Origin: Ensifer adhaerens
Lineage (GTDB): Bacteria > Pseudomonadota > Alphaproteobacteria > Rhizobiales > Rhizobiaceae
DNA length: 64,000 nucleotides
Direction: 5' to 3'
Assembly: GCF_002007205.1 (NCBI RefSeq)
Contig: NZ_LAZS01000008.1
Span: forward strand, 434,001 to 498,000
Positions 12,259-27,426 of the stretch are shown here, in pieces; positions within the stretch are counted from its first letter, which is position 1, and the number at the start of each line of letters is the position of its first letter. The notes under the pieces were generated by a model. That model was not told the DNA's origin. It ran no database searches and saw nothing but the letters and a program-made list of their open reading frames with translations. Position numbers and translations under genes: made by a program.

Positions 12259-13242
12259 GTGGATTATTCCTTCATGTCTGTAGTGTGGCTGGGAACGCCG
12301 CTCTGGTTGTGGGCGAGCTTTTTCGCCCTTGTCATCGCCATCCTGTCGTTCGACCTTGGTATTCTCCACAAGGAGAACAAGGAGATCGGCGTTGCTGAAA
12401 GCGTGAAGCTTTCCGCCTTCTATATCGTCCTCGGCCTGAGTTTCGGCGGTTTCGTCTGGTGGTATCTCGGTGCCGATTCCGGTCTTGCCTATATGACCGG
12501 CTTCGTCGTCGAAAAGACGCTCGCGCTCGACAACGTCTTCGTCATCGCGCTGATCTTCTCCTTCTTCGCCGTTCCGCGTATCTATCAGCACCGCGTGCTG
12601 TTCTGGGGTATCCTCGGTGTCATCGTGCTGCGCGCGATCATGATCGGCGTCGGCGCGACACTGGTCGCCGAATTCTCCTGGGTTCTCTATATCTTCGCCG
12701 CGTTCCTCGTCTTCACCGGCATCAAGATGCTTGTCATGAAGGAGGCCGAGCCCAACGTCTCGGACAATGCGCTCGTGCGCTTCATGCGCAGCCGTTTCAA
12801 CGTCACCGAGGAACATCACGGCGAGCGCTTCTTCGTGAAGCTCGTCAACCCCAAGACCGGCAAGATGACCTGGTTCATCACGCCCCTCTTCATGGCGCTG
12901 GTCATGGTCGAGGTTGCGGACGTGATCTTCGCTGTCGACTCGGTTCCCGCGATCTTCGCGATCACCACCGATCCGTTCATCGTCTACACGTCGAACATCT
13001 TCGCTATCCTCGGTCTGCGTGCGCTCTACTTCGCTCTTGCCGCGATGATCCATCGCTTCCGCTACCTGAAGCCGGCGCTCGCCGTCGTCCTGATCTTCAT
13101 CGGATCGAAGATCTTCGTCGCCGATCTCCTGGGGCTCGAGAAGTTCCCGGCGGCTCTGTCGCTCGGCGTGACCTTCGCGATCATCGCTTCGGGCGTGGTC
13201 TGGAGCCTGGTGAAGACGCGCGAAGAGCAGCAGCCCGCATAA
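12259..13242 (+). CDS. terC: TerC-family integral membrane protein
   Basis: The protein has 327 residues from the GTG at 12259, chosen because GGGGA lies seven bases before it. The ATG at 12274 has no ribosome site. There are about nine membrane helices with the conserved acidic family motifs ILSFDLGILHKE, EKTLALDNVFVIALIFSFF and EVADVIFAVDSVPAIFAIT. TerC/Alx/MeeY proteins are associated with manganese export, metal supply to exported enzymes and tellurite resistance. No ter operon is nearby, so a manganese role is more likely than tellurite resistance. A terminator follows the stop. Confidence 0.9.
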   Translation: MDYSFMSVVWLGTPLWLWASFFALVIAILSFDLGILHKENKEIGVAESVKLSAFYIVLGLSFGGFVWWYLGADSGLAYMTGFVVEKTLALDNVFVIALIFSFFAVPRIYQHRVLFWGILGVIVLRAIMIGVGATLVAEFSWVLYIFAAFLVFTGIKMLVMKEAEPNVSDNALVRFMRSRFNVTEEHHGERFFVKLVNPKTGKMTWFITPLFMALVMVEVADVIFAVDSVPAIFAITTDPFIVYTSNIFAILGLRALYFALAAMIHRFRYLKPALAVVLIFIGSKIFVADLLGLEKFPAALSLGVTFAIIASGVVWSLVKTREEQQPA

Positions 13243-13269
13243 CGCTGGGCGGATCTTGACGAGAAAATG

Positions 13270-13304
13270 CGGCGGCCTTCGCAAGGGGCCGCCGTCTTCG
13301 TTTT
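13270..13304 (+). terminator. Rho-independent terminator of terC
   Basis: CGGCGGCC (13270-13277) pairs with GGCCGCCG (13287-13294) around a nine-base loop, and TTTTT follows at 13300-13304. It lies 28 bases after the TerC stop, between convergent genes. Confidence 0.8.
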
Positions 13305-13327
13305 TCGGCTTGCCGCTGCCACGCCTT

Positions 13328-14743
13328 CTAGCCGATGATCGCCTTCGGTTCGAGGAAGGCCTCAAGGCCGAACGGACCGAACTCGCGGCCGATCCCGGAA
13401 TGCTTGAAACCGCCGAACGGTGCCCGGGCGTCGGCCGGCGCTTCGTTGATCACCACCCGCCCGGCCTCAAGCTGGCGGGCAACGGCGCGCATGTGCTCGG
13501 CATCGCTGCCAAGAACATAGGATTGCAGGCCGTAGTCCGTGTCGTTGGCGATAGCGATCGCCTCGTCCTCGTCCCGGTAGCGAACCACGCTCAGCACCGG
13601 ACCGAAGATCTCTTCGCGCGCAATCCGCATATCGTTGGTGACGTCTGTGAAGACGGTCGGGCGGACGAACCAGCCGCGCTCCAGTCCGTCCGGCCGACCC
13701 TCGCCGCCGACCAGAAGGGTCGCGCCCTCTTGCTGGCCGAGACGGATATAGGACTGGACCCGTTCCCACTGCCTGGCGCTTACCATCGGGCCGATGTCGG
13801 CCGCCGGATCGCTGGAGGGGCCGACCTTGAGTGTCGCGACGGCCTCTGCGAGACGCGTGTTGATTTCCACGTATCGCCTTTTCGAAACCAGCAACCGCGT
13901 TCCGGCGATGCAGGCCTGTCCGCTGTTGCGAAAGGCCGAGGCGAGAACGTGCGGGATGGCGCGATCGAGGTCGGCATCGTCGAGCAGGATCTGCGGTCCC
14001 TTGCCGCCGAGTTCGAGCGTTACGCGTTTGAAGGTCTCTGCGGCGGTGCGCAGGATCGTCCGTCCCGTCGTTGTCGAGCCGGTGAAGGTGATCTTGGCGA
14101 TGTCCGGATTCCGGCTGAGCTCCGCGCCGACGACGTGGCCGTGGCCGTTGACGACGTTGAGGACCCCGGGTGGCAAGTCGGCTTCGTGGAGGGCTTCGAG
14201 CAGCGTCTGGGTCTGGATCGCGCTCATTTCCGACGGCTTGATCACGATGCTCGTTCCGGCGGCGATCGCGGTGGCGAGCTTGGTGCAGATGAAGCCGATG
14301 TTGCTGTTCCACGGCGTGATGGCGGCCGCCACGCCGACCGGTTCCATGATCACGTCGGCATTGCCGATCCTGCGCGTGAAGGCATAGTCGGCCACGGTTT
14401 TCGCGGCGGCCTCGAACACGCCGGCGGCATGGGGCACGGAGAAGGCGAGGAAGGACTGCGGCGCGCCGTATTCGGTGGCCATGGCCGCGCGGAGCGCATC
14501 GGCCCTGGCGGCGACGGCATCGCGCAATGCCAGCAACAGGGACACGCGCTCGGCCGGTTCCGTCCGTCTCATCGCCGGAAAGGCACGTCTGGCGGCGGCA
14601 ATGGCGGCGCGGGCGTCCTCGGCATCGCCGAGGCGTACCTCGCCGATCTTTTCCTCGGTGGCGGGATTGAAAAGATCGAAGCGCTCGCTGCCATGAGGCG
14701 TTGCGAAGGCGCCGTCGACGTAAATCTGTTCGATAAGTTTCAT
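13328..14743 (-). CDS. NAD(P)-dependent aldehyde dehydrogenase
   Basis: The protein has 471 residues from the ATG at 14743, which has AGGA nine bases upstream. Longer frames lack a ribosome site. The ALDH hallmarks are present: the AAITPWNSNIGF loop near the cofactor, FTGSTTTGRTI (Rossmann contact), the general base in LELGGKGPQ and the catalytic cysteine in NSGQACIAGTRLL, with EEIFGPVLSVVRY further on. The substrate class cannot be set by eye. It is divergent from the LysR gene at 14840, which probably activates it. Confidence 0.93.
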   Translation of the reverse strand: MKLIEQIYVDGAFATPHGSERFDLFNPATEEKIGEVRLGDAEDARAAIAAARRAFPAMRRTEPAERVSLLLALRDAVAARADALRAAMATEYGAPQSFLAFSVPHAAGVFEAAAKTVADYAFTRRIGNADVIMEPVGVAAAITPWNSNIGFICTKLATAIAAGTSIVIKPSEMSAIQTQTLLEALHEADLPPGVLNVVNGHGHVVGAELSRNPDIAKITFTGSTTTGRTILRTAAETFKRVTLELGGKGPQILLDDADLDRAIPHVLASAFRNSGQACIAGTRLLVSKRRYVEINTRLAEAVATLKVGPSSDPAADIGPMVSARQWERVQSYIRLGQQEGATLLVGGEGRPDGLERGWFVRPTVFTDVTNDMRIAREEIFGPVLSVVRYRDEDEAIAIANDTDYGLQSYVLGSDAEHMRAVARQLEAGRVVINEAPADARAPFGGFKHSGIGREFGPFGLEAFLEPKAIIG

Positions 14744-14839
14744 CGTCCGTTTTCCTGTTGCGATGAAGGGGATATGCATCCGGGCGACCGTCAGGATAAG
14801 ATCATCAATCAAAGACAGGCTGATGAGGAAAATAGAGCA

Positions 14840-15784
14840 GTGAAGGCGAGCCTCTCGGAACTTGAGGCGGTGACGACGATTGCGCGGCTTGGCGGTTTCC
14901 GCGCCGCCGCGCGGGAGCTCGGCGTCTCGTCATCGTCGCTGAGCCATGCGGTGCTGGCGCTGGAGGAGCGGCTGGGCGTGCGCCTGTTCAATCGGACGAC
15001 ACGATCGGTGGCGCTGACGGCGGCGGGCGAGGGTTTCGTTGCCGAGGTCCTTCCCGCCCTTGCAGCCATCGAAGGGGCGGTCGAGCGGGTGACGGAATCG
15101 CAGGCGCGACCGACCGGCACGCTCCGGCTCAACACGTCGCCAGGGGCGGCCAAGATGGTGCTGCGGCCGCTGCTCGTCGAATATCTGAAGCGCTACCCGC
15201 AGATGACGCTGGAAGTCGCGACGGACAACGCGCTGGTCGATATCATCGCGCTCGGCTTCGACGCCGGCTTCCGGCTGGCCGAAGCGGTTCCGCCGGACAT
15301 GATCGCGGTTCCGGTGTTCCACCAGTCGCGCATGATCGTGGTCGGTTCGCCGGACTATTTTCGGCAAAGATCAGTGCCGCGGCGACCAGGCGACCTCCTG
15401 CAGCATGCCTGTATCCGTGCGCGCATGGCGAGCGGCAGGATCTACCACTGGGAGTTCAACCGCCGCGGAGAAAGCGTCGAAATCGACGTGCCGGGGCCGC
15501 TCATCCTCGACGACAGCGACCTGATGCTGGAGGCGACGCTTTGCGGCGCAGGACTGGCCTATCTCTCCGATCATGCGGTGCAAGAGCACGTCGCAGCCGG
15601 GCGGCTCGTGCCGGTGCTTGATGACTGGACGCCGCCTTATGACGGGCTTTGCCTCTATTTTTCCGGCCGGCGGCATGTGCCGGCAAAGCTCAGGGCGCTG
15701 ATCGATCTTGTTCGCGAGTTGCGCCCGGGCCGGGGCCGGATCGGCGCCGAGCTCCCGGCATCCGGCGGTGCGGGTGGGTCTTGA
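14840..15784 (+). CDS. LysR-family regulator (divergent from aldehyde dehydrogenase)
   Basis: The protein has 314 residues from the GTG at 14840, preceded by GAGGA ten bases upstream. An ATG at 14774 would add 22 residues with poor spacing. The HTH is typical (TTIARLGGFRAAARELGVS then SHAVLALEERLGVRLFNRTTRSV), and the effector domain is complete (GTLRLNTSPGAAKMVLRPLL). The same frame stays open for over a kilobase upstream, antisense to the dehydrogenase. That part is not coding. It belongs to the CrgA-like branch with regulators of nearby oxidoreductases. Confidence 0.9.
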   Translation: MKASLSELEAVTTIARLGGFRAAARELGVSSSSLSHAVLALEERLGVRLFNRTTRSVALTAAGEGFVAEVLPALAAIEGAVERVTESQARPTGTLRLNTSPGAAKMVLRPLLVEYLKRYPQMTLEVATDNALVDIIALGFDAGFRLAEAVPPDMIAVPVFHQSRMIVVGSPDYFRQRSVPRRPGDLLQHACIRARMASGRIYHWEFNRRGESVEIDVPGPLILDDSDLMLEATLCGAGLAYLSDHAVQEHVAAGRLVPVLDDWTPPYDGLCLYFSGRRHVPAKLRALIDLVRELRPGRGRIGAELPASGGAGGS

Positions 15785-15935
15785 AAAAATAACATGAGTA
15801 TTAAAGACAAGTTTATTTACGCGTGCTAAGAGACACGCCGTTCGTGCGGCCGGCCGGCTAGGCGATCGTATCTCGGCAGCCAGTGCGGGCGGCGCTGGAT
15901 GTCAAATCGAAGTTGTTTTGATCGGATCAGACACC

Positions 15936-16460
15936 ATGGTCGACATGGAAACACGCCATCAGGTCTATTTCGCCAATCGTACCGCCCTGGTTGCCTACGC
16001 AACGCGTATCGTCGGATCCCGCGAAACGGCCGAGGATATCGTGCAGGAGGCGTTCATCCGGTTCACGCCGGCGAACGCAACTGGGGTCTCTTCCGAAAAA
16101 TCGTCCGGCCTGTTGCCCGCCTATCTCTACAGGATCGTCCGCAATCTTTCCCTCGACCTCATCAAGCGGCGCAAGCTCGAGGTCCGGGAAGAAAGAAGCG
16201 AACCGCCTTATTGGTCTATGCCGATCGAGACGCCGTCGCCTGAAGATATCGTCGTCGCGGCCGACGAAATCCGGCAGGTCTCGATCGCCCTCGGCAACCT
16301 TCCCGAACAGGTCAGGGTGGCGCTGGAGATGCATCGCTTCGGCGGCTACACGCTGGAGGAGATTGCCGCTCACCTCGACGTCTCGGTTGCGACGGCGCAT
16401 CGCCACGTCCGCACCGCCATGATGCGCGTCGCGACAACCCTGGCGGGCAATACCTCATAG
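15936..16460 (+). CDS. ECF-family RNA polymerase sigma factor, FecI-like
   Basis: The protein has 174 residues from the ATG at 15936. A TTG at 15918 would give 180. Sigma region 2 is seen in LVAYATRIVGSRETAEDIVQEAFIRF and region 4 in LPEQVRVALEMHRFGGYTLEEIAAHLDVSVATAHRHVR (given as landmarks LPEQVR and VATAHRHV). The following genes encode FecR and an STN-domain TonB receptor, so this is a cell-surface-signalling sigma factor. It is held inactive until FecR relays that the receptor is loaded. Near-identical 31-bp elements before fecR and before the receptor gene are its likely promoters. The 150 bp upstream are AT-rich at 15785-15830 but show no clear iron-regulator box. Confidence 0.88.
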   Translation: MVDMETRHQVYFANRTALVAYATRIVGSRETAEDIVQEAFIRFTPANATGVSSEKSSGLLPAYLYRIVRNLSLDLIKRRKLEVREERSEPPYWSMPIETPSPEDIVVAADEIRQVSIALGNLPEQVRVALEMHRFGGYTLEEIAAHLDVSVATAHRHVRTAMMRVATTLAGNTS

Positions 16461-16476
16461 AAATTTTAGGGGGGTC

Positions 16477-16507
16477 GTGAAAAAAAATCCGGCGCTATTC
16501 GTCTTTG
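16477..16507 (+). promoter_or_regulatory. Putative ECF promoter before fecR (copy 1)
   Basis: The element starts GTGAAAAAAAATCCGG, has a 'GC' two bases on and ends TCGTCTTTG. It matches the element at 17594-17624 in length and at about 27 of 31 positions. A TGAAAA -35-like block and a CGTC -10-like block 16 bases apart fit ECF promoters. It begins 17 bases after the sigma-factor gene. Confidence 0.7.
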
Positions 16508-16565
16508 TGACAAACCGAGTGAATCCGATAGTGTCGCATCGACCACCGAGGTAGCAGGCAAAGCT

Positions 16566-17558
16566 TTGAGCAAGGACAACCACATTCCGGAAGCGTTGCT
16601 CGAAGAAGCGATGGACTGGTTCCTCGAACTGAAGGCGCGCCCCAACTGTCGCGATACCGAAGCGGCTTTCCAGGTCTGGCTCAGTCGGTCGGAACTGCAT
16701 GCCCGATCCTGGGAGGCGGCGCTGAAAACCTGGCGGCTTCTGGGCGAAGTGCCGCCTGCCCACGAACACCTCTGGCGCGGAGCAAAGCCGCAGATTGCGC
16801 GCGAACGGTCGTCCCGCCGCCGCATGGCCGGGGGGCTTGTGGCGGGGGCGGCGGTTTTCGCGCTCGCCGCCTGCCTCGCCCTGTTCGTCTCGCTGCCGTC
16901 CCTGTTCCTGTGGTGGCACGCGGATCACGTCACCGATACCGCGCAATCCAGGACGATCGCGCTTGCGGACGGAACGACCGTCGAACTGGGCGGCGGCAGC
17001 GCCATCGCTACCGAAATCGGTGCCGGCAGCCGCCATGTGAGGATTCTGAAGGGCGAAGCCTATTTCAACGTCGCCCGCGATCCTTCGCGTCCCTTCGTGG
17101 TCGAGGCGGGCGGCGTCGAGGTTTCCGTGCTCGGCACTGCGTTCGACGTGCAATTGGCGAGCACGGAAACCACGGTCGAACTGGCGCATGGCACGGTTGC
17201 CGTCTCCTACAGCGGCAACGAACACAAACAGAATTTCGAGCTGGCGCCGGGAGAAATGGCGACGGTGAGCCATGCGACCGGCGCAGTTTCGCGAAGCGCA
17301 ATCGCGCCGGACGAGATCGGCGCGTGGCGAAGCGGCAGGATGTTCGTCAACAACGTGACCGTTGCTGCGGCCGCCGAGCGGCTGCAGCGCTACCATTCCG
17401 CCTGGATCGCCGTTCCGCAGCCCGGTCTTGCAGGGCAGCGCGTGACCGGCGTCTACGACCTGAAGGATCCTGATCGTGCGCTCCAGGCGCTGGTGCAGCC
17501 CTTCGGCGGCAAGGTGCGCGCGGTGACGTCCTATGGCCGGGTTCTGACCCAATTTTAA
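16566..17558 (+). CDS. FecR-family anti-sigma factor / signal transducer
   Basis: The protein has 330 residues from a TTG start at 16566. No ATG or GTG with a ribosome site is nearby. The N-terminal ~75 residues form the cytoplasmic sigma-binding domain (EAMDWFLELKARPNCRDTEAAFQVWL, then SELHARSWEAALKTW). A single membrane helix lies around 88-118, followed by the FecR periplasmic domain (ADGTTVELGGGSAIATE, GEAYFNVARDPSRPF, VLGTAFDV) and a C-terminal STN-like region. The protein relays receptor occupancy to the sigma factor. It sits between the sigma and receptor genes, each separated by about 110 bp carrying the same promoter element. Confidence 0.92.
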   Translation: MSKDNHIPEALLEEAMDWFLELKARPNCRDTEAAFQVWLSRSELHARSWEAALKTWRLLGEVPPAHEHLWRGAKPQIARERSSRRRMAGGLVAGAAVFALAACLALFVSLPSLFLWWHADHVTDTAQSRTIALADGTTVELGGGSAIATEIGAGSRHVRILKGEAYFNVARDPSRPFVVEAGGVEVSVLGTAFDVQLASTETTVELAHGTVAVSYSGNEHKQNFELAPGEMATVSHATGAVSRSAIAPDEIGAWRSGRMFVNNVTVAAAAERLQRYHSAWIAVPQPGLAGQRVTGVYDLKDPDRALQALVQPFGGKVRAVTSYGRVLTQF

Positions 17559-17593
17559 TTGGAGTCAAAAAATCAGGAAAAAATCGCGCGCCG

Positions 17594-17624
17594 GTGAAAA
17601 AAAATCCGGAGCCGGTCGTCTTTG
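17594..17624 (+). promoter_or_regulatory. Putative ECF promoter before the TonB receptor (copy 2)
   Basis: This is the second copy of the element at 16477-16507: the same GTGAAAAAAAATCCGG block, then 'GC' and TCGTCTTTG at identical spacing. It overlaps an in-frame TTG at 17622, which argues that the receptor starts further downstream, at 17676. Confidence 0.7.
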
Positions 17625-17675
17625 GTTGGAAACGCACGCCTGCAAGGCGGTGCGGGATGCCGAGACGGGGGTAGA

Positions 17676-19985
17676 ATGCGTTTGCCGAAACGCCGCAAGG
17701 GACATCTGATTTTCAAGGCAGGACGTCGCCACGGCGGAGGACGCCTGCTGACGACGACGGCGATCGCCGCGTTTTCGTCCCTCGCCCTGATACCCGTTTC
17801 CACCGCGTCGGCCCAGCAGTCTACATCCCGCGTCGGCAATGCCCGCGCTTTCGACATCCCTTCCCAGCCGCTTGCCAGCGCGCTGAATGCCTTCGGACGG
17901 CAGTCCGGCCTACAAGTGACCTTGGCGGCCGCAACCTCGCAGGGACTTCGCTCGGCCACAGTTAGCGGAACGTTCACGGTCGACCAGGCGCTTGCGCGGC
18001 TGCTTTCCGGCACCGGCATTTCCTACAGCATATCGGGTGGTACCGCGCTGGTCGGCGCGCCTCTCTCGGCAGGCGGCAGCGAAGCGGTCGCCACGGACGG
18101 CGCAACGGTGCTCAATCCGATCTCGGCTTTCGGTGCCGGTCCGCTCGGTGCCGGCGAGATCGTCATCTCGTCGGAAGACCTTAAGCGGAAGAACCCGGCC
18201 GACATTGCCGATGTATTTTCGGGCGAGCCCGGCATTTCGGTCGGCAGCTCGCTGCCGATGTCGCAGAAGGTCTATGTCCACGGTATCGAGGAAACCAGCC
18301 TTGCCGTGACGATGGATGGCGGCCGCCAGAACAACAAGGTCTTCCATCACAACGGCACGAACCTCATCGATCCGGGCCTTCTGAAAACGGTCAGCGTCGA
18401 TGCCGGCGTTGCGCCGGCCGATGCCGGCCCGGGGGCGCTTGCCGGTGCTATTTCCTATGAAACGATCGATGCACGCGATCTGCTGGATGGCGACGGCTTC
18501 GGCGGCTTCGTCACGTCCAGCTACAATTTCAACGGCGACACCGTGACGACGGGGCTCTCGGCCTACGGCATGCAGGACGGGCTCGAGTTCCTCGGCTACT
18601 TCAATTTCGGCAAGGGTAACGATTTCACGGCCGGCAACGGCCAGGAGGTGCAAGGTACCTCCACGGACCTCCTGAGCGGGCTTGGCAAACTCGCCTACGA
18701 GTTCGACAGCGGCGACCGCTTCGAGATCAGCCACGACAGCATAAGGGACGATGCACCGCGTCCGTTCCGGGCCAACATGGGGTCGACGACGGGCAGCAAG
18801 CCGTGGGAGCCGCCTATCCGCGACTATACGCTCGAACGCGGCAACACGGTCTTCACCTATACCGACAGCACGCCCGAGGGGTGGTGGGATCCGACGCTGC
18901 TGCTTGCCTACAGCAAGACCGAAGTCGAAGTGCCTGTTTTTCCGAAGCCGGCGCCCGGTCTACCCGTCAGCTACCAGGGGATCGGTGCATCGGACGGCTT
19001 CAACGGCAAGTTCGAGAACAAGTTCTCCCTCGACATCGGCAACGTGATCGCCGGCATCGACTTCTACGACGACGAGGCGAAACTCAGGGACATGTTCGAT
19101 TCCGGCTCGGAAAAGGCCCGCAACCTCGGCTTCTACGCCCAAGCACGGCTCGAGCCGTGGGAACGAACGCGCCTTTCCTTTGGCGCCCGCGGCGACAATC
19201 AGCACTTCACCGGAACCACCGGTCAGGAGTGGACCAATTCCGGCTTCAGCGGCAATGTTTCGGGTGAATACGATCTGATCGAGGACCTGCTGACGGCCAA
19301 GGCCGGCTATTCGCATGTCTGGGCCGGCATACCGCTTGCCGAAAACTTCATCATCAATCCCAAGTGGGATTATGGACAGGGCCCGAAGCCGGTGACGGCG
19401 GACAATTACATCCTCGGGCTGGAGGCAAACTACAACGGCTTCACCGTCGAAGGCAGCGTTTTCCAGACGGATATCGATGACGCCCGCACGCCGCGTTTTG
19501 CGGTCACCAAGGGGATCGACGCGCACGACGTCCGCTCGCGGGGCTTCGAGATCGGCGGCGGCTACACCTGGGGAGATGGCTATTTCAAGGTGAAATACGC
19601 CAATATCGACGTCGAAATCGACGGCAAGCCCGCGGACTCCGATCTCGGCACCTATCTTGCCACCCCGGCCGGCCAGATCATTACCTTGCAGGCAGTCCAC
19701 ACGCTGGCGGACTGGGGCGTCACCCTCGGCGCCGATGCGGAAATTGCGCTCGACTACGACGATGTTCCTCACGGCAGCAGCGCGCTGGAAGGCTATCAGG
19801 TCTTTAACGCGTTTGTCGAATATGTGCCACCGCAGCGGACCAATCTCACGCTGCGGGCGGAACTGAAGAACATCTTCGACGAGACCTATTCGGACCGGGC
19901 AACCTACGGCCAGGAGTTCAAAGCGGTAACGCCACTCTACGAGCCGGGCCGTTCCTTCATCCTGACCGCCAGAGCGAGTTTTTAG
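17676..19985 (+). CDS. TonB-dependent outer-membrane receptor with STN signalling domain
   Basis: The protein has 769 residues from the ATG at 17676 (GGGGGTAG upstream). A long signal sequence ends near TASAQQ (residue 48). An STN domain follows at about 60-125 (FDIPSQPLASALNAFGRQSGLQVTLA), then a possible TonB box (ATVLNPI, ~143). Next are the plug (SSEDLKRKNPADIADVFSGEPGISVG, DGGRQNNKVFHHNGTN) and a beta-barrel ending in ...LTARASF. The STN domain contacts FecR, so the receptor both imports and signals. Its ligand could be the petrobactin-like siderophore made by the genes downstream. The plug also resembles haem/haemophore receptors, so the ligand is unproven. Confidence 0.92.
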   Translation: MRLPKRRKGHLIFKAGRRHGGGRLLTTTAIAAFSSLALIPVSTASAQQSTSRVGNARAFDIPSQPLASALNAFGRQSGLQVTLAAATSQGLRSATVSGTFTVDQALARLLSGTGISYSISGGTALVGAPLSAGGSEAVATDGATVLNPISAFGAGPLGAGEIVISSEDLKRKNPADIADVFSGEPGISVGSSLPMSQKVYVHGIEETSLAVTMDGGRQNNKVFHHNGTNLIDPGLLKTVSVDAGVAPADAGPGALAGAISYETIDARDLLDGDGFGGFVTSSYNFNGDTVTTGLSAYGMQDGLEFLGYFNFGKGNDFTAGNGQEVQGTSTDLLSGLGKLAYEFDSGDRFEISHDSIRDDAPRPFRANMGSTTGSKPWEPPIRDYTLERGNTVFTYTDSTPEGWWDPTLLLAYSKTEVEVPVFPKPAPGLPVSYQGIGASDGFNGKFENKFSLDIGNVIAGIDFYDDEAKLRDMFDSGSEKARNLGFYAQARLEPWERTRLSFGARGDNQHFTGTTGQEWTNSGFSGNVSGEYDLIEDLLTAKAGYSHVWAGIPLAENFIINPKWDYGQGPKPVTADNYILGLEANYNGFTVEGSVFQTDIDDARTPRFAVTKGIDAHDVRSRGFEIGGGYTWGDGYFKVKYANIDVEIDGKPADSDLGTYLATPAGQIITLQAVHTLADWGVTLGADAEIALDYDDVPHGSSALEGYQVFNAFVEYVPPQRTNLTLRAELKNIFDETYSDRATYGQEFKAVTPLYEPGRSFILTARASF

Positions 19986-20097
19986 CGCGACGGTCCCGAC
20001 TATTGCTGCCGGATCCTCCCGGGCGGCAGCACCCAAGACGCTCAGGCGGTCATTTCCGGCCGCCCGGGCAGCGAAAGCCGATAGACAGGAAGTTCCA

Positions 20098-20388
20098 ATG
20101 CAAGAAGCGACCACCCATTTTGCGACGGAAGACGGCCAGAAATACCTGACGCAACTGTGCAAGCATTTCGCCCACAAGATCGACGTTGAACAGGCGGGCG
20201 ATCGCGCCGAGCTCCGGTTCTCCTGCGGCACCGGCTATCTAAAGGCCGCAGCCGATGGCCTGGGCATCCGCGCCAGCTCGCCCGACGATGCCAATCTCGC
20301 CGACACGAAATCGGTGATCGAAAGCCATCTTCTGCGCTTCGCGTTCAAGGAAGAGCCCGGCCCGCTTGCCTGGCAACCGGCCGGCTAA
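20098..20388 (+). CDS. DUF2218-domain protein
   Basis: The protein has 96 residues with AGGAAG before the ATG. The pattern HFATEDGQKYLTQLCKHFAHKI...AELRFSCGTGYLKAAADGLGIRASSPD matches the DUF2218 family: small cytosolic proteins with a conserved K-x-L-x2-L-x2-H-x3-K/R and a later G-x2-A-x-loop. No biochemical function is known to me. It is placed between the TonB receptor and the siderophore synthetases, about 110 bp from each, which ties it to iron uptake by context. Confidence 0.82.
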   Translation: MQEATTHFATEDGQKYLTQLCKHFAHKIDVEQAGDRAELRFSCGTGYLKAAADGLGIRASSPDDANLADTKSVIESHLLRFAFKEEPGPLAWQPAG

Positions 20389-20492
20389 GCGGACCGTTCG
20401 CAAACCAGTTCCGACAAGAAAATTCAATGTGTTGGTCGAAAGCGCCAACGCAAATGCGCGGCTGTGCGTGTCGCGTGCCGAGGATCGACAGG

Positions 20493-22277
20493 ATGCAATC
20501 GTCTAGGCAAATCGCAGAAATCGCCACCTTTCAAAGCTTCGCAAACTGCTACCTGCGCGAAGTGAACCCCGGTATCCGGGCCATGCATCGCGCCGCGGGC
20601 GGCGTTTTCGACTGCGTCGAGTGGTCTCTTCCAAGACAGCACATGATCCTGCGCGTCGAGGTGACGTCGCCGTCGCTCTGCGGCCCGCACCACTTCGGCA
20701 GGGTCTGGGGCAGGGGCGTTTCCGACGCCACATGGCGCCAGATCGAACTGATATCGGCGCTCCATATCCTGGTGCATGAATGCTACCGCCAGGCCGATGA
20801 GGCCAGGGCCGAGGCCTTGCGCGGTTTCGAACTCGAACTGCTGATGCGTGTGCTGGAAAGCTACCAGCAGACCGCGCTCTACATCGACAGGGCCGAGCCA
20901 GGACCGGCGGACGGCGACCACTTCATCGAAGCGGAACAGGCGCTCGTCTTCGGACACTGGCAGCATCCGACGCCGAAGAGCCGCCAGGGCATGACCTATT
21001 GGCAGCAGGAATCCTACGCGCCGGAGCTGCGCGGCCAGTTCAAGCTGCACTACTTCGCGGCGAAACGCGCCGATATCAGGCACGATTGCGCCCGCGAATT
21101 TGCAGCGCCTGAGATCGTCCGCTCCCTGGTCGGGCCGGATGCCGACGGCATGGCGCTTCCCGCCGACGAATATCTGCTGCCGATGCATCCGCTTCAGGCC
21201 GAAGCCCTGCTGCTTGATCCCGATATCCGGGGCATGCTGGGGGAAGGGCGGCTGCGTCATCTCGGCCCTGCCGGCCCTGACTTCACCGCGACGTCATCGG
21301 TGCGCACGGTTTACGGCGCCGATGCCGGCTGGATGCTCAAGTTTTCCCTGCCCGTGCGCATCACCAACTCCGTGCGCCTGAACCGTCGCCAGGAGCTCGA
21401 AGCGGGCGTCGCGATGGCAAAGCTGATCGACCGGATCGGTTTTGCCGAACGGTCCAAAAACTTCCGCATCATCCAGGACCCCGCCTATATCACGCTCGAT
21501 CTGCCGGGGCGCAACGAGAGCGGCTTCGAAGTCATCCTGCGGGAGAACCCCTTTTCCGGCAACAGGGGAAGCGGCGTCGTCACTGTCGCGGCCCTGACCG
21601 CCGATCCCCTTCCGGGGCAGGTCTCCCGCCTCGAACGGCTGGTTCGGACGGTCGCCGCGCGCACGGGCGAGAGCCTGGCGGACGCGTCGCTTCTCTGGTT
21701 TCGCCGCTATCTCGACTGCGCCGTCGAACCGCTGATCCGCCTTTACGATGACTATGGCGTCGCGCTCGAAGCGCACCAGCAAAACAGCCTGCTGGACGTC
21801 GGCGCCGGCTATCCGTGCGTCAGCTACTACAGAGACAATCAGGGCTTCTACCTCTCGGAACGCTATCGCAGCCTGATCGCCGGCCATGTTCCGGAGACAC
21901 AAAGGATCGCGTCGCTCTATTTTGCCGAGAGCGAAATCCGTGATCGCTTCGCCTACTACCTGATCGTCAATCAGGTCTTCTCGGTGATCAGCCGCATGGG
22001 CCATGACGGGCTCTGCGACGAGAGCCTGCTCCTGCGCGAGTTGCGCACGCATCTGGAGCATTATGCCGCCCGAATGACCGCAGCCGGTCGCGACTTTGCC
22101 CGTCACGTCCTCGATCTGCCGACGATCGTCTCCAAGGCCAATCTGACGACGCGCCTCTACGACGTGGACGAACTGCAATCCGGCAATGCGCCGTCCCTTT
22201 ATCGCCCCGTGCCGAACCCACTCCGGGCGCCGGCCGTTCTGACCGTGCCGAGGACCGATCATGCCATTGCCTCTTGA
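20493..22277 (+). CDS. asbA: NIS siderophore synthetase, AsbA-like (IucA/IucC family)
   Basis: The protein has 594 residues from the ATG at 20493 (GAGGA eight bases upstream). Longer in-frame starts lack a ribosome site. Family motifs: ALVFGHWQHPTPKSRQGM (ATP/citrate region), LLPMHPLQAEALL, TSSVRTVYGADAGWMLKFSLPVRITNSVR (in parts) and LEAHQQNSLLD with the C-terminal FerIII-reductase-like domain. In petrobactin synthesis AsbA condenses citrate with spermidine using ATP. The length (about 600) and the gene order with asbB-C-DE-F support this assignment over aerobactin synthetases. It overlaps the next gene by 17 bp. Confidence 0.85.
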   Translation: MQSSRQIAEIATFQSFANCYLREVNPGIRAMHRAAGGVFDCVEWSLPRQHMILRVEVTSPSLCGPHHFGRVWGRGVSDATWRQIELISALHILVHECYRQADEARAEALRGFELELLMRVLESYQQTALYIDRAEPGPADGDHFIEAEQALVFGHWQHPTPKSRQGMTYWQQESYAPELRGQFKLHYFAAKRADIRHDCAREFAAPEIVRSLVGPDADGMALPADEYLLPMHPLQAEALLLDPDIRGMLGEGRLRHLGPAGPDFTATSSVRTVYGADAGWMLKFSLPVRITNSVRLNRRQELEAGVAMAKLIDRIGFAERSKNFRIIQDPAYITLDLPGRNESGFEVILRENPFSGNRGSGVVTVAALTADPLPGQVSRLERLVRTVAARTGESLADASLLWFRRYLDCAVEPLIRLYDDYGVALEAHQQNSLLDVGAGYPCVSYYRDNQGFYLSERYRSLIAGHVPETQRIASLYFAESEIRDRFAYYLIVNQVFSVISRMGHDGLCDESLLLRELRTHLEHYAARMTAAGRDFARHVLDLPTIVSKANLTTRLYDVDELQSGNAPSLYRPVPNPLRAPAVLTVPRTDHAIAS

Positions 22278-23997
22278 TCTCAAGGGCCGCCCGGACGAGC
22301 GGGTGCTTCGCCAGCTCGTTGCCGCCCTGCTTTTCGAAGGCATCGTTGAGGCCAGCGAGCAGACGGACGGCGATGTCACGAACTTCCAATGGTCGCTCGG
22401 GGGCCGGCAGTTCCGCTGCCGCGGTGCCATCGGCCCCTTTGGCCGGCTGCGACTGGCGGCGGGATCGGTGGAGATGCGCGACGACGCGGATGGCTGGGGC
22501 GTGCCGCCGCTGGCGCACCTGGTGTCCGCCCTGCCGGGCAGCGGTCCGACCCGCGGGAAGCTGCTCGACGAACTCACGCAGACGATTGCCTTCAGCGCCT
22601 GGAACGAGCGCCGTGTGCCGGCTCGGCCGCGCCGCGCCTTGCCATTTTCCGAGCTGGAGGGCGCGCTTGACGAGGGGCATCCCTATCATCCCTGCTACAA
22701 GGCGCGCACCGGCTTTTCCGTTGCCGACCATGCGGCCTATGGGCCGGAGACGGGAGAAGCGTTCCAGCTCGTCTGGCTGCTCATCGCGCGAAAACATCTG
22801 CGCCAGGCCCTGCCTTGCGACGAGGAGGCCTTCTGGCAAGCGGAACTGGGCGAGGAAATCTGGTCCGAACTGCGGTCGAAACGGCAGCAGCGCGGCGTTT
22901 CGCCGGATGCCTTCGGCCTTCTACCGTTGCATCCCTGGCAATGGCGCGAGCTCCGTGAGACCCGGCTTGCCGGTTGGATCGCCGCCGGCGAAGTCCTTTG
23001 CCTCGGTCCAGCGGGGGACCGATACACGGCGACGCAGTCGGTTCGCTCGCTGTTGAACCGGGACCGGCCCCTCGCTTCGAGCATCAAGCTGCCGCTCAAC
23101 ATCGTCAACACCTCGTCGCGCCGCATACTCGAGCCGCATTCGGTCTGCACGGCACCGGTGATCTCGCGCTGGATCGCCGGGATGGTTGCGGGCGATCCGG
23201 CCTTTTGTGAGCGTTATCCGCTGACCATCCTGCAGGAATTTGCCGGCATCATCGCCGATGGCGACGGACCTTTGGCGGGACAGGTTGCAGCCATCTGGCG
23301 CGAGAACGCGGAAGCGACGCTCGCACCCGGCGAGGCCGTCATCCCTTTCAATGCCTTGATGATGGTCGAGGCAGACGGGCGCGCGTTTGCCGACGACTGG
23401 ATCAGGCGCTTCGGTCTGATGCCCTTCATCAACCGGCTGATCGAAGTGGCGGTCCTGCCCGTCTGGCACCTCCTGGTCCACCATGGCCTGGCGGTCGAGG
23501 CGCATGGGCAGAACATGTTGCTCGTCCATCGCGACGGCTGGCCGGTCAGGCTCATCCTGCGCGACTTCCACGAAAGCATCGAGTTCTCGCCGAGCTTTCT
23601 GCGCGCGCCGGAAAAGGCGCCGGATTTCCTGTCACTCCATTCGGCGTACCTCGATGCGGAGCCCGACCAGTTCTATTGGACGGAGAACCTGGATTCGCTG
23701 CGCGAATTGGTGATGGACACGCTGTTCGTCTACAATCTCAGCGAGATCTCCCATCTTCTCGACCACTGCTACGACCTGCCGGAGGCACTCTTCTGGCAGC
23801 GCGTCCAAACCGTGCTTGCCTCCTATGAGGGGGAGCACGCCGCGACCGAGCGGCTGGCGCAGCTTAGCTGCGACCAGCCCCGCATCCTGACCGAATCCCT
23901 GATGACGAGGAAGCTGCTCGCGCTCAAGCCGGAATACCACCACGAGGTGGCGAACGCCTTGGCCGCAAGGACGCTCCAACGAAGGAGAAAGCCATGA
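22261..23997 (+). CDS. asbB: NIS siderophore synthetase, AsbB-like (IucA/IucC family)
   Basis: The protein has 578 residues. The start lies inside the end of the asbA-like gene with GAGGA six bases before it. Motifs: EGALDEGHPYHPCYKARTGF, LLPLHPWQWREL, TATQSVRSLLNRDRPLASSIKL (in parts), LNIVNTSSRR, VEAHGQNMLLVH and RLILRDFHESIEF. The HPxxKxRxG block and the EAHxQN block are those of a complete enzyme. In the petrobactin route AsbB adds a second spermidine or 3,4-dihydroxybenzoyl-spermidine arm to the citryl intermediate. Two different NIS synthetases side by side fit a citrate-based siderophore with two polyamine arms. Its end overlaps the next start (ATGA). Confidence 0.85.
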   Translation: MPLPLDLKGRPDERVLRQLVAALLFEGIVEASEQTDGDVTNFQWSLGGRQFRCRGAIGPFGRLRLAAGSVEMRDDADGWGVPPLAHLVSALPGSGPTRGKLLDELTQTIAFSAWNERRVPARPRRALPFSELEGALDEGHPYHPCYKARTGFSVADHAAYGPETGEAFQLVWLLIARKHLRQALPCDEEAFWQAELGEEIWSELRSKRQQRGVSPDAFGLLPLHPWQWRELRETRLAGWIAAGEVLCLGPAGDRYTATQSVRSLLNRDRPLASSIKLPLNIVNTSSRRILEPHSVCTAPVISRWIAGMVAGDPAFCERYPLTILQEFAGIIADGDGPLAGQVAAIWRENAEATLAPGEAVIPFNALMMVEADGRAFADDWIRRFGLMPFINRLIEVAVLPVWHLLVHHGLAVEAHGQNMLLVHRDGWPVRLILRDFHESIEFSPSFLRAPEKAPDFLSLHSAYLDAEPDQFYWTENLDSLRELVMDTLFVYNLSEISHLLDHCYDLPEALFWQRVQTVLASYEGEHAATERLAQLSCDQPRILTESLMTRKLLALKPEYHHEVANALAARTLQRRRKP

Positions 23998-25274
23998 TCC
24001 GTATCGACGACAGGCTCTATGACGAGGCCTATTTCAACAAAAGATCGGCCGAGCTCGCGGCCGAGATCGGCCTTCGCGCGCAAGATACCGGCCGCTACGC
24101 CGTCTGCTTCTCGGAAACGGTCGATTGGCTGGCGCTGTTTTTTGCCATCCGCCAGGCGGGGGCGAGCGTGCTGCCGATCCATCCGGGCACACCGTATCAG
24201 GCTGCGCGCAAGCTCGCGATCGGCGCCGGCTGCGACCGGCTGTTCTACAACAGCCTAACGGCCGAAGTCCTCGAAACATCCGAGTTGCCTTCGTCCGAAG
24301 GTACGCTGTTGCAGATGAGCTCTGGCACGACCGGCGCGCCGAAATGCGTGGCGCGCAGCTGGCGGGAGATCGATGCCGAGATCGAGAGCTATGTCGCCAC
24401 CTTCCGCGAACCGGAGGACATGACGCCGGTCATCGCCTGCCCGACCACCCATTCCTACGGGCTGATCTGCGGTATCCTGGTGGCGCTGAAGCGCGGGCAG
24501 ACTCCCGTCATCGTCAACACCGCGAACCCGAAGTATCTCCTGAAGATACTGCGCGAGACCGAAAGGCCGCTGCTCTATTCCTCGCCGGCGATCCTGCACA
24601 CGCTGGCGCGGCTGATGCCCGCGGGCGAACAGATCCACGCGACGATGACCTCGGGCACGCTGCTTCCCGACCCGTGGTTCGCCGACATTCGCGCGAAGAG
24701 CCGGTTCATGTTCCAGCAATATGGTTGCTCGGAATCCGGTTGCATCGCCATCAATCCGGATGTGACGTCCGCCGGCGACATGGGTTTCGTCCTGCCGCAT
24801 CTGATCGCGGCGACCGGCAGCAGCGCCGAGGATGCGGGTGAGATCGTCGTCAAAAATGGCGACGGTTCGCCGATCCACACGCGTGACCTCGGCTACCTTC
24901 GTGCCGACGGCATGCTGGTCTTCGTTTCGCGTCTGGACGACATGATCAATGTCTCCGGCCTCAACGTCTATCCGAAGGACGTGGAGGATGCCGTCATGGC
25001 CATGCCTGCGGTCACCGACGCAGTCGCCTTCCGCAAGTCCGACCGGTTTGCCGGCGAGCGCGTCGCGCTGCTTTTCAGCGCAGAGACACCAGTCGCACCG
25101 CAGGCGGTGCGCGAATGGTGCAGCCGGCACCTCGCGTCTCACCAGTTGCCGATGGAGATCCTGCAGATCGATGCGGTTCCGCGCCAGGCGAACGGCAAGA
25201 TCAGCCGTCGCGATGTCGCGGCACGTCATCTGGCGGGCGAATTCAACAAGTCGATCGCGGGAGCCGCATCATGA
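23994..25274 (+). CDS. asbC: Aryl-AMP ligase, AsbC-like
   Basis: The protein has 426 residues and is an adenylate-forming enzyme. The core motifs are MSSGTTGAPKC (A3), QYGCSESG (A5), TRDLGYLRADG (A7), SRLDDMINVSGLNVYPKDVED (A8; quoted in parts SRLDDMINVSG and NVYPKDVED) and RQANGKISR with the catalytic A10 lysine. The length is that of AsbC (~410) and shorter than typical EntE/DhbE (~540). In petrobactin synthesis AsbC adenylates 3,4-dihydroxybenzoate and loads it on the AsbD carrier. It overlaps both neighbours by four bases (ATGA), so the operon is tightly coupled. Confidence 0.87.
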   Translation: MIRIDDRLYDEAYFNKRSAELAAEIGLRAQDTGRYAVCFSETVDWLALFFAIRQAGASVLPIHPGTPYQAARKLAIGAGCDRLFYNSLTAEVLETSELPSSEGTLLQMSSGTTGAPKCVARSWREIDAEIESYVATFREPEDMTPVIACPTTHSYGLICGILVALKRGQTPVIVNTANPKYLLKILRETERPLLYSSPAILHTLARLMPAGEQIHATMTSGTLLPDPWFADIRAKSRFMFQQYGCSESGCIAINPDVTSAGDMGFVLPHLIAATGSSAEDAGEIVVKNGDGSPIHTRDLGYLRADGMLVFVSRLDDMINVSGLNVYPKDVEDAVMAMPAVTDAVAFRKSDRFAGERVALLFSAETPVAPQAVREWCSRHLASHQLPMEILQIDAVPRQANGKISRRDVAARHLAGEFNKSIAGAAS

Positions 25275-26584
25275 CCGAAAGCGAAGTTCTGGCGGCGATC
25301 GAGGCCGTCCTCATTGACAAGATGGCGCATGGCCATATGAACGGCTTCGGCCTCGATGCCCGCCTCAACGAGGACCTCTATCTCGACTCCGTCCTGATCC
25401 TCGAAATCTTCCTCAATCTCGAGCTCGAATACGGGCTGTCGGTGCCGGAAGAGGCGATCGCGAAGCAGGAGATCGAAACGGTCGCAGATCTCGTTGCCCT
25501 TTATGTGCCCAAGCCGACCGCCGCCATCGTGCCGGCCTTTCCGCTCACGGGCGGGACGAGCGACGAAGGCGTGCACGGCGAGGCCTATTACGACATCAAG
25601 GTTCATTGCTTCGTCAGCTGCGTCTCGGATGGCCTGAAGCGAAACGGGCTCGATCAGCGGCCGTTCTATTTCGGCGTCTGGGACGCGAAGTTCGCGGTCA
25701 GCGAGCGTTTCGAGCTTCTCTATCACGCGCCCGACATCACCCAGGAATTCTTTCGCGGCTGGTTCGAGCGGCTTTACGGTGTCTCGGTCGTCGAGTGGTA
25801 CGACCCGGATCGCACCAAGCTCGACAACCTTGCGGTGCTCACCGGCCTGCTGAAGCAGCGCAGCGAAACGGGTTCGGTGATGGTCATGCTCGACATGTTC
25901 CACCTGCCGGAGCGGGAGAACAAGTTCAACCAGAACCCGTTCCCGCACTATCTGATGCTGCAGGAAACGGCTGATCCCGAGACCTGGTTCGTAAACGACC
26001 CCGACTATCGCTGGGAAGGCGAGATCGCCAAGGAAAAGGTCGTCCATGCCATCATGCAGCCGACGGTCGGCGGCGGCTATGTCTTCGACAATGCCGAGGC
26101 GCGCACGCCGTTTGCCGAAGATCTGAAAGCCTATTTCGAGGCCTGCTTCGTCCGGGACTGCAATCCGCTGGTCGATGCGGTTCGGTCAATCGTTGCCGCG
26201 CATCTCGACGGGACGAACGGCGTCGCGCTCGCGGATCTTGGCACGGCGGTGCGGGAGCTGCCGGTCATCACCATCCGCAAATATGCCTATGAGCACGGCT
26301 TCGCCTTCTACTGGCGGGCGCTGAAACTGCCTTCGGCCGAGTTCGAACGGTGGTGTGAGGAAATCGAGTCGCTGGTCCAGTCGCTGAAGACCCTGCACTA
26401 CGCCTGCATGAAGCTTGCCCAGACCGGGGACCGCGCCTTGGCGCAGCCTGTCTTCGAGCGCCTCGACGAGGCGGACCGGCTCGAAACGAAACTGAAAAAC
26501 AAGCTCGCCGAGGCTTTCGATCTCTGGTGCGATCTTGCCATCCCCGCCGAAAGCCATCCCCCATTGAAGAGAGTTGCGCGATGA
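25271..26584 (+). CDS. asbDE: Aryl-carrier protein fused to AsbE-like transferase (AsbD-AsbE fusion)
   Basis: The protein has 437 residues. Residues 1-85 are an acyl-carrier domain with the phosphopantetheine serine in DLYLDSVLILEIF (S40). After a ~20-residue linker rich in Pro/Ala, residues ~105-437 resemble AsbE: YYDIKVHCFVSCVSDGLKRNGL (in parts), FYFGVWDAKFAVSERF, VMLDMFHLPERENKFNQNPF and NDPDYRWEG. In Bacillus these are separate proteins: AsbD carries 3,4-dihydroxybenzoate and AsbE passes it to spermidine. Here one frame runs through both with no stop between. It starts in the asbC stop and overlaps asbF by ATGA. The fusion is seen directly, and the joint function is inferred. Confidence 0.83.
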   Translation: MTESEVLAAIEAVLIDKMAHGHMNGFGLDARLNEDLYLDSVLILEIFLNLELEYGLSVPEEAIAKQEIETVADLVALYVPKPTAAIVPAFPLTGGTSDEGVHGEAYYDIKVHCFVSCVSDGLKRNGLDQRPFYFGVWDAKFAVSERFELLYHAPDITQEFFRGWFERLYGVSVVEWYDPDRTKLDNLAVLTGLLKQRSETGSVMVMLDMFHLPERENKFNQNPFPHYLMLQETADPETWFVNDPDYRWEGEIAKEKVVHAIMQPTVGGGYVFDNAEARTPFAEDLKAYFEACFVRDCNPLVDAVRSIVAAHLDGTNGVALADLGTAVRELPVITIRKYAYEHGFAFYWRALKLPSAEFERWCEEIESLVQSLKTLHYACMKLAQTGDRALAQPVFERLDEADRLETKLKNKLAEAFDLWCDLAIPAESHPPLKRVAR

Positions 26585-27426
26585 GAGTTTCGCTTTGCAC
26601 CATCACCTTCCGGCATCAGCTGATATCGCTCGACGAGATCGCCGCCTGGGCCGAAGCCAACGACTTCCAGGGCATCGAACTCTGGGGCGCACATGCGCGA
26701 AATCTGGCGCCACGTGCCGACCGCAATGCGGAATGGCTGGATGGCTACGGCCTGTCGGTGCCGATGATCAGCGACTACCTGCCGCTCGACGGCGACGTGG
26801 AGGCCCTGCGGCACAAGGCGGTGGAGCTTTGCCGGCTTGCCCGGCGGTGGCGCACCCGCAAGATCCGCACCTTTGCGGGAAGCCGCGGCAGCCTCGAAGT
26901 GAGTGCCGACGAGCGGCAACAAATTGTCGAGCGCCTGAAGGAGATCTGCACCATCACCGCCAGTTACGGCATCCATCTGCTTGCCGAAACTCACCCGAAG
27001 ACGTTGGCTGACACGGCAGCCTCGACCAACAGGCTGATCGAAGAGGTGAACCATCCCTATTTCGCGATCAATTTCGATACCCTGCATGTGTGGGAAGGTG
27101 GCGACGATCCGGTCGCCGTGCACCGCACGATGAAACCGCACATTCGCCACTACCACCTGAAGAACATCGTCAGCCGGGCAGACCTTACGGTCTTCGAGCC
27201 GGCCAACGTCTACGCTGCCGCCGGCAGCCGCCGCGGCATGACGCCACTTTTCGAAGGGGTTGTCGATTATGATCGGTTCCTGGCGGAGGTCGCCGGCGAG
27301 TCGCAGGTTGATGCGTCGCTGGAATGGTTCGGCAATGATTGCCTCGAAACTCTGCGTCGCGACCGCACGCGGGTCCGTCTGGTCGTCGAGGGGATCGCAC
27401 CGGCTCGCAGAGCAGCAAACCTCTAG
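26581..27426 (+). CDS. asbF: 3-Dehydroshikimate dehydratase, AsbF-like
   Basis: The protein has 281 residues, the length of AsbF (280). It is a TIM barrel of the sugar-phosphate isomerase/epimerase superfamily. The likely metal and catalytic residues are visible: E136 and H138 in LLAETHPKT, D166 and H169 in NFDTLHVWEGGDD, H190/H192 in HIRHYHLKN and E248 in ASLEWFGND. The ETH and FDxLHVW spacing match the dehydratase and not xylose isomerase. The enzyme converts 3-dehydroshikimate to 3,4-dihydroxybenzoate, the aryl cap of petrobactin. It is the last gene of the operon, and a hairpin follows. Confidence 0.87.
   Translation: MRVSLCTITFRHQLISLDEIAAWAEANDFQGIELWGAHARNLAPRADRNAEWLDGYGLSVPMISDYLPLDGDVEALRHKAVELCRLARRWRTRKIRTFAGSRGSLEVSADERQQIVERLKEICTITASYGIHLLAETHPKTLADTAASTNRLIEEVNHPYFAINFDTLHVWEGGDDPVAVHRTMKPHIRHYHLKNIVSRADLTVFEPANVYAAAGSRRGMTPLFEGVVDYDRFLAEVAGESQVDASLEWFGNDCLETLRRDRTRVRLVVEGIAPARRAANL

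Follow-up and report, generated by a model that had tools for sequence, protein, structure and literature searches.

Closest described systems

Petrobactin carries spermidine arms, and the Bacillus asb operon has a set gene order, asbA to asbF. The same order is cited in two papers on related clusters (PMC11317620, PMC8822346). In rhizobia, Liu et al. (2022) described in Sinorhizobium fredii the same locus as the one analyzed here and found it to be required for siderophore production (PMC8822346). Specifically, in S. fredii CCBAU45436, a strain also used in a further study (PMC12815270), asbA was needed for CAS-positive siderophore production and RirA acted as a repressor (PMC8822346). The same paper lists Ensifer adhaerens Casida A among the genomes with the asb cluster and reports AsbABCDEF in 245 alphaproteobacterial genomes. 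A fusion of AsbD with AsbE has already been published for three clusters, those of rhodopetrobactin, roseobactin and methylolanthanin (PMC11317620), and homospermidine arms are recorded for rhodopetrobactin (PMC7857480) and methylolanthanin (PMC11317620).

The locus compared here with these systems lies in a 64,000-nucleotide stretch (the window) of an E. adhaerens genome (G000). From the sigma factor gene to asbF its gene order is that of S. fredii, and in S. fredii USDA 205 (L059) the DE protein is likewise a single ORF of 441 aa and the promoter motif likewise lies 5' of fecR and of the receptor gene fprA. The two loci differ after asbF, where S. fredii has fatBDCE and the window does not. 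Among 12 of the 18 FecCD places of G000, the best fatBDCE match was a BDCE-like set at C1:16.5–20.4 kb, 42–49% identical to that of S. fredii USDA 205; a FatBDCE set beside the operon was considered and rejected, the FatE matches of the window lying at 36–38 kb with 25–26% identity and without FatB, FatC or FatD. All six functions of the Bacillus operon are present in the same order, but here AsbD and AsbE form one protein, the operon adjoins a receptor and sigma factor module of Gram-negative type, and the supply of spermidine is in doubt. The rhodopetrobactin cluster of Rhodopseudomonas palustris shares the DE fusion, the DUF2218 protein, the TonB receptor and the sigma factor partners (PMC11317620), and the homospermidine arms of its product (PMC7857480) find a counterpart in the homospermidine synthase of G000; it differs in its acetyltransferase, none being present among the larger ORFs examined here between 15.9 and 34.1 kb. 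The methylolanthanin cluster (mll) of Methylorubrum extorquens AM1 has the same enzyme families and a DUF2218 protein but differs in its fused mllBC and in its acetyltransferase and DUF4142 genes (PMC11317620).

The locus is a genuine petrobactin-family operon that is already known in close relatives, and it is an ordinary gene cluster for Ensifer. The first-pass annotation had called it unusual in a plant-associated alphaproteobacterium, a view that was not supported: the marker gene DUF6005, counted by itself, is carried by all 16 genomes of the genus and by 29 of the 297 in the family sample, and the rhizobial cluster was published in 2022 (PMC8822346). DUF6005 scored 464–502 bits in 26 of the 29 family genomes and 310–317 bits in G022, G137 and G256. 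A GTDB-based collection yielded 236 stretches with an encoded relative, and the best 80 of these 236 were used.

The asb operon

The operon (20493–27426, all genes on the + strand) consists of five genes for AsbA, AsbB, AsbC, an AsbD-AsbE fusion and AsbF, successive genes overlapping by 17, 4, 4 and 4 bp. The first-pass annotation had proposed a petrobactin-type pathway in asb order, in five genes overlapping by 4–17 bp and with the aryl carrier and AsbE in one protein; coordinates, strand and overlaps were confirmed, and by Pfam and NCBIfam the families are those of the Asb proteins.

The first two genes encode NIS synthetases of the AsbA type (20493–22277, +; assigned by Pfam, by 82% identity to S. 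fredii USDA 205 and by falling with the other AsbA rows in the tree) and of the AsbB type (22261–23997, +; 80% identity to S. fredii USDA 205), both with an IucA_IucC domain (193.9 and 228.3 bits, respectively, in Pfam) and a FhuF domain. In PDB the best sequence match of AsbB was AsbB (3to3, E 4.5e-95) and that of AsbF was AsbF (3dx5, E 8.8e-77); AsbA was closest to the aerobactin synthase IucA (E 2.8e-47), no AsbA being among the 8 matches. The AsbC-type aryl-AMP ligase (23994–25274, +) has a Pfam AMP-binding domain, passes the NCBIfam model PRK08308 (561.6 bits against a cut-off of 513) and shares 87% identity with S. fredii USDA 205. The AsbD-AsbE fusion (25271–26584, +) begins with a carrier domain, with Ser40 in DLYLDSV, followed by DUF6005 (492.1 bits in Pfam); the nearest NCBIfam model to its N-terminus is AsbD, yet at 60.3 bits, under the cut-off of 100. 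The AsbF-type 3-dehydroshikimate dehydratase (26581–27426, +) is a xylose-isomerase-like TIM barrel in Pfam with motifs present at residues 133, 163, 189 and 246, which presumably hold the metal ligands.

The locus therefore carries what marks an asb cluster, that is AsbA-like and AsbB-like synthetases, an AMP ligase, a Ser carrier, DUF6005 and AsbF. Its likeness to the Bacillus Asb proteins is drawn from published identities (PMC8822346) and, for AsbB and AsbF, from the PDB entries. Across seven Ensifer/Sinorhizobium loci (L049, L050 and L055–L059) the orthologues share 82–95% (A), 80–92% (B), 86–95% (C), 83–92% (DE) and 83–90% (F) identity, and a chance match is not an issue. The genes 3' of asbF, encoding a cyclase-domain protein, a GH5-type protein, an alpha/beta hydrolase and a transketolase-like protein, lie on the opposite strand, so that the operon ends with asbF. 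Composition gave no sign of recent transfer, with a GC content of 63.6% for the operon and 63.7% for the window.

Upstream module and control elements

The ECF-FecR-TonB module that had been placed beside the operon was located upstream of it. It starts with a FecI-like ECF sigma factor (about 15918–16460, +, start codon uncertain; NCBIfam sigma70-ECF 84.4 bits, cut-off 42.9) that shares 71–94% identity across seven Ensifer/Sinorhizobium loci, followed by a FecR anti-sigma factor (16566–17558, +; Pfam FecR 72.3 bits). The TonB-dependent receptor (17622–19985, +; Pfam STN, Plug and beta-barrel) has an STN signaling domain and is the orthologue of S. fredii FprA, with 78% identity to S. fredii USDA 205; translation probably begins further downstream than 17622. 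Between the receptor and asbA lies a DUF2218 protein of the c14010/MllG type (20098–20388, +; Pfam DUF2218 89 bits).

A 30-bp motif, GTGAAAAAAAATCCGG-N6-TCGTCTTT, occurs in two copies in the window, as candidate sigma-FecI promoters 5' of fecR (16477–16506, +), with a matching motif in 10 of 16 rows, and 5' of the receptor gene (17594–17623, +), with the motif in 16 of 16; the rows are the window and 15 relatives picked for having the same upstream module. Also 5' of the receptor gene, all 16 aligned rows carry the 11 bases TCGTCTTTGGT unchanged. The pattern was drawn from its own two copies, so that its chance expectation of 0 is not independent and conservation serves as the independent test. 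The two copies occupy the same two regions as those bound in S. fredii, where FecI-Flag binds the promoter regions of fecR and fprA (PMC8822346).

A RirA-box-like element, TGAGTATTAAAGACAAGTTTAT, of the form TGA-N9-ACA (15795–15816, +), lies 5' of the sigma factor gene and left a footprint over the 16 rows, being largely conserved and altered in the more distant ones. It differs by one base from the published TGA-N9-TCA, of which no exact copy occurs from 13183 to 23417 and so none near fecI. In S. fredii the exact palindrome was present in five of ten RirA ChIP peaks (PMC8822346), and by analogy with those data RirA may bind the candidate element. The bare TGA-N9-TCA pattern says little in this window, as it has 26 matches in positions 1–64000 against 10 expected. 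Control by iron and FecI has been demonstrated in S. fredii; synteny and the conserved promoter sequence suggest the same control here.

Polyamine supply and predicted product

Going by orthology, AsbF would convert 3-dehydroshikimate to 3,4-dihydroxybenzoate, which AsbC would activate and load onto the carrier domain of the AsbD-AsbE fusion. From there the AsbE part would transfer 3,4-dihydroxybenzoate to a triamine, and AsbA and AsbB would join the arms to citrate, giving a predicted product of citrate with two triamine arms and 3,4-dihydroxybenzoate at each end. The TonB receptor would take the ferric complex back up, and its STN domain would signal through FecR to the sigma factor, the latter firing the promoters 5' of fecR and the receptor gene, while RirA would repress under iron.

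The genome encodes a homospermidine synthase (HSS; C1:200379–201827, 483 aa), named by reading and by PF03435, NCBIfam giving no match for it. The sole CASDC model match in G000 scored 19.8 bits; NCBIfam assigns this protein to LysA (477.5 bits against a cut-off of 297.9), and SpeD had no match. In four loci of the genus, including L047, CASDC has a saccharopine-dehydrogenase-like neighboring gene, the four copies sharing about 98% identity; when this gene was compared with the seven PF03435 loci of G000 in search of CASDH, the best match covered 42 residues at 31% identity (E 0.035). S. meliloti requires CASDH for spermidine, and rhizobia making no spermidine are reported to have casdh-casdc absent (PMC13293326). 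The only complete known triamine route detected in G000 is that to homospermidine. Since the synthase is encoded, and the carboxyspermidine-route enzymes and SpeD were not found in G000, homospermidine is the most likely triamine; from gene content, a petrobactin-family siderophore built on it is given a probability of about 0.55. The first-pass annotation had already mentioned homospermidine arms as an example of a polyamine analogue.

Confidence in homospermidine is lowered by a spermidine-synthase-like fusion protein in the same genome. Two spermine-synthase-type proteins exceed the Pfam threshold of 22.9 bits, at 33.2 and 28.5 bits; one of them passes the NCBIfam model for a fused MFS/spermidine synthase (101.8 bits, cut-off 40), and both score well below what the SpeE and aminopropyltransferase models require. 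Both would depend on decarboxylated AdoMet, for which no SpeD match was found in G000. The protein passing the fused model at C2:18789–22154 (L012) is a large membrane protein. Bacterial homospermidine synthase, moreover, can form some spermidine from 1,3-diaminopropane.

A true petrobactin, with spermidine obtained by uptake, through the spermidine-synthase-like proteins or by an unrecognized route, appears rather unlikely. It would agree with the name given to the product in the S. fredii papers (PMC8822346, PMC12815270), with the 62–69% identity of S. fredii AsbABCDEF to their counterparts in B. anthracis (PMC8822346), itself a producer of spermidine-petrobactin (PMC7857480), and with the fused MFS/spermidine synthase-model protein of G000; the cell could import spermidine, and a divergent enzyme of the spermidine route could have been missed. 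Against it stand the missing CASDC, CASDH and SpeD in G000, the like want of a CASDC match in S. fredii USDA 205 (G312), and the nature of the published assay, which in S. fredii used CAS dye (PMC8822346); the terms "mass spectrometry" and "LC-MS" occur in the main text of neither S. fredii paper (PMC8822346, PMC12815270). Among the matches listed from open-licence PMC papers there was no chemical proof of the rhizobial product.

The preferred homospermidine reading may extend beyond this genome. With a chance somewhat short of even, the "petrobactin" of S. fredii, of part of Ensifer and of other rhizobia without CASDC may be a non-acetylated bis-homospermidine homologue distinct from rhodopetrobactin, with a calculated [M+H]+ of 747.392. 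On the same calculation petrobactin would lie at m/z 719.361 and a bis-acetylated form at 831.414, against 831.4228 given for rhodopetrobactin B in PMC13251462, so that these masses are provisional. Homospermidine arms, if present, would mean that a rhizobial siderophore has been published under an incorrect name and that authentic petrobactin is not the right ligand for receptor and xeno-siderophore studies. A single mass spectrum would then directly test how the polyamine metabolism of a species is linked to its siderophore.

All 29 marker-positive family genomes have HSS, while full-length CASDC was found in 7, SpeD in 2 and neither CASDC nor SpeD in 21. Full-length CASDC was present in 20 of 50 named marker-positive genomes (387–423 bits) and not in the other 30, which include S. 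fredii USDA 205; the 50 overlap with the 29 family genomes, so that the counts are not additive. Rhodopseudomonas infernalis and two Methylobacterium, likewise among those 30, are consistent cases, their relatives R. palustris and Methylorubrum making homospermidine compounds (PMC7857480, PMC11317620). Within the genus CASDC was matched in 8 of 16 genomes at 397–414 bits, which indicates that the search works there. As the marker is present in all 16, the Asb enzymes may take whichever triamine is present. No residue pattern tracking CASDC presence was found in AsbA, AsbB, AsbC or DE (best column P 0.6; number of good columns P 0.32), using 17 tree blocks set by hand. The enzymes thus show no homospermidine preference, and the argument is one of supply.

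The same genus counts and the lack of a specificity signature would also suit a mixture, in which AsbA and AsbB accept either triamine and the product follows the supply of the cell, including a mixed-arm form at m/z 733.377. Such a mixture is improbable here, since homospermidine is the one complete triamine route detected in G000 and uptake or another route would be needed. Far less probable still is a methylolanthanin-like metallophore of 4-hydroxybenzoate and acetylated homospermidine: the DE fusion, DUF2218, TonB receptor and sigma/anti-sigma factors are common to mll (PMC11317620), but B and C are separate here against the fused mllBC, the larger ORFs examined at 15.9–34.1 kb include neither an acetyltransferase nor a DUF4142 protein, and AsbF is close to the characterized enzyme, though an mllF exists too.

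Synthetase grouping and asb lineages

Least credible of all is another NIS siderophore, of the aerobactin or rhizobactin type, to which the IucA match of AsbA in PDB and a 36% identity of AsbA (residues 126–577) to an S. meliloti pSymA synthetase, taken to be of rhizobactin type from reading its unannotated record, might point, but against which stand the union of the AsbA rows in 93% of bootstrap trees, the asb families (Pfam) of the remaining operon genes and the identities to plasmid records, 41–43% for asb-type synthetases of Phaeobacter and 90–93% for those of Ensifer versus 28–32% for aerobactin IucA and IucC, among the matches listed (best 40 of 1720 for A and best 40 of 1830 for B). 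Neither the tree nor the plasmid-record identities supported an aerobactin-type or rhizobactin-type grouping. The first-pass annotation had held that a grouping with achromobactin, vibrioferrin or aerobactin enzymes would speak against its reading; the synthetases did not group with the aerobactin-type and presumed rhizobactin enzymes, the two types that the NIS tree took in. The AsbB rows stood on one side in 28% of bootstrap trees, the outside enzymes joining an unresolved AsbB set by a long branch and attaching away from the row of the window. In the PDB scores for AsbA, AcsD (E 3.8e-32) came behind IucA, by sequence score alone and not by a tree. A plasmid-borne IucA/IucC protein of Halobacterium salinarum (H83) shared 36.6% identity with AsbA over 96%, closer than aerobactin IucA.

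A quick joined tree of AsbA, AsbB, AsbC and DE (LG+G4; 51 rows, the window and 50 of the 80 loci) gave long-branch warnings for several distant rows and none for the window, whose partner was E. adhaerens ST2. The Ensifer and Sinorhizobium rows fell into two lineages, a starred set of six (the window, ST2, LC11, sesbaniae, Root278 and S. fredii USDA 205) and a second set of five (SD006, LC163, oleiphilus, Lc04 and A49) with Asb proteins 72–84% identical to those of the window. The lineages match CASDC status, the six rows being without it and the five with it, and if the proposal of a bis-homospermidine homologue is right they would make different molecules. In the second set the sigma factor, FecR, receptor and DUF2218 were not matched within the retrieved flank. 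The two asb lineages hence differ in their upstream genes (L062, L064, L066, L067 and L085 versus the window and L055–L059).

Of the 80 named loci, 22 gave no AsbF match within the retrieved flank (L063, L071–L074, L076, L082, L087, L101, L104–L106, L108–L110, L115, L117, L118, L120, L122, L126 and L129), of which L115 is truncated where its contig stops. Three of these loci, L104, L118 and L122, have genes that read as transporter-like 3' of DE in the place of AsbF.
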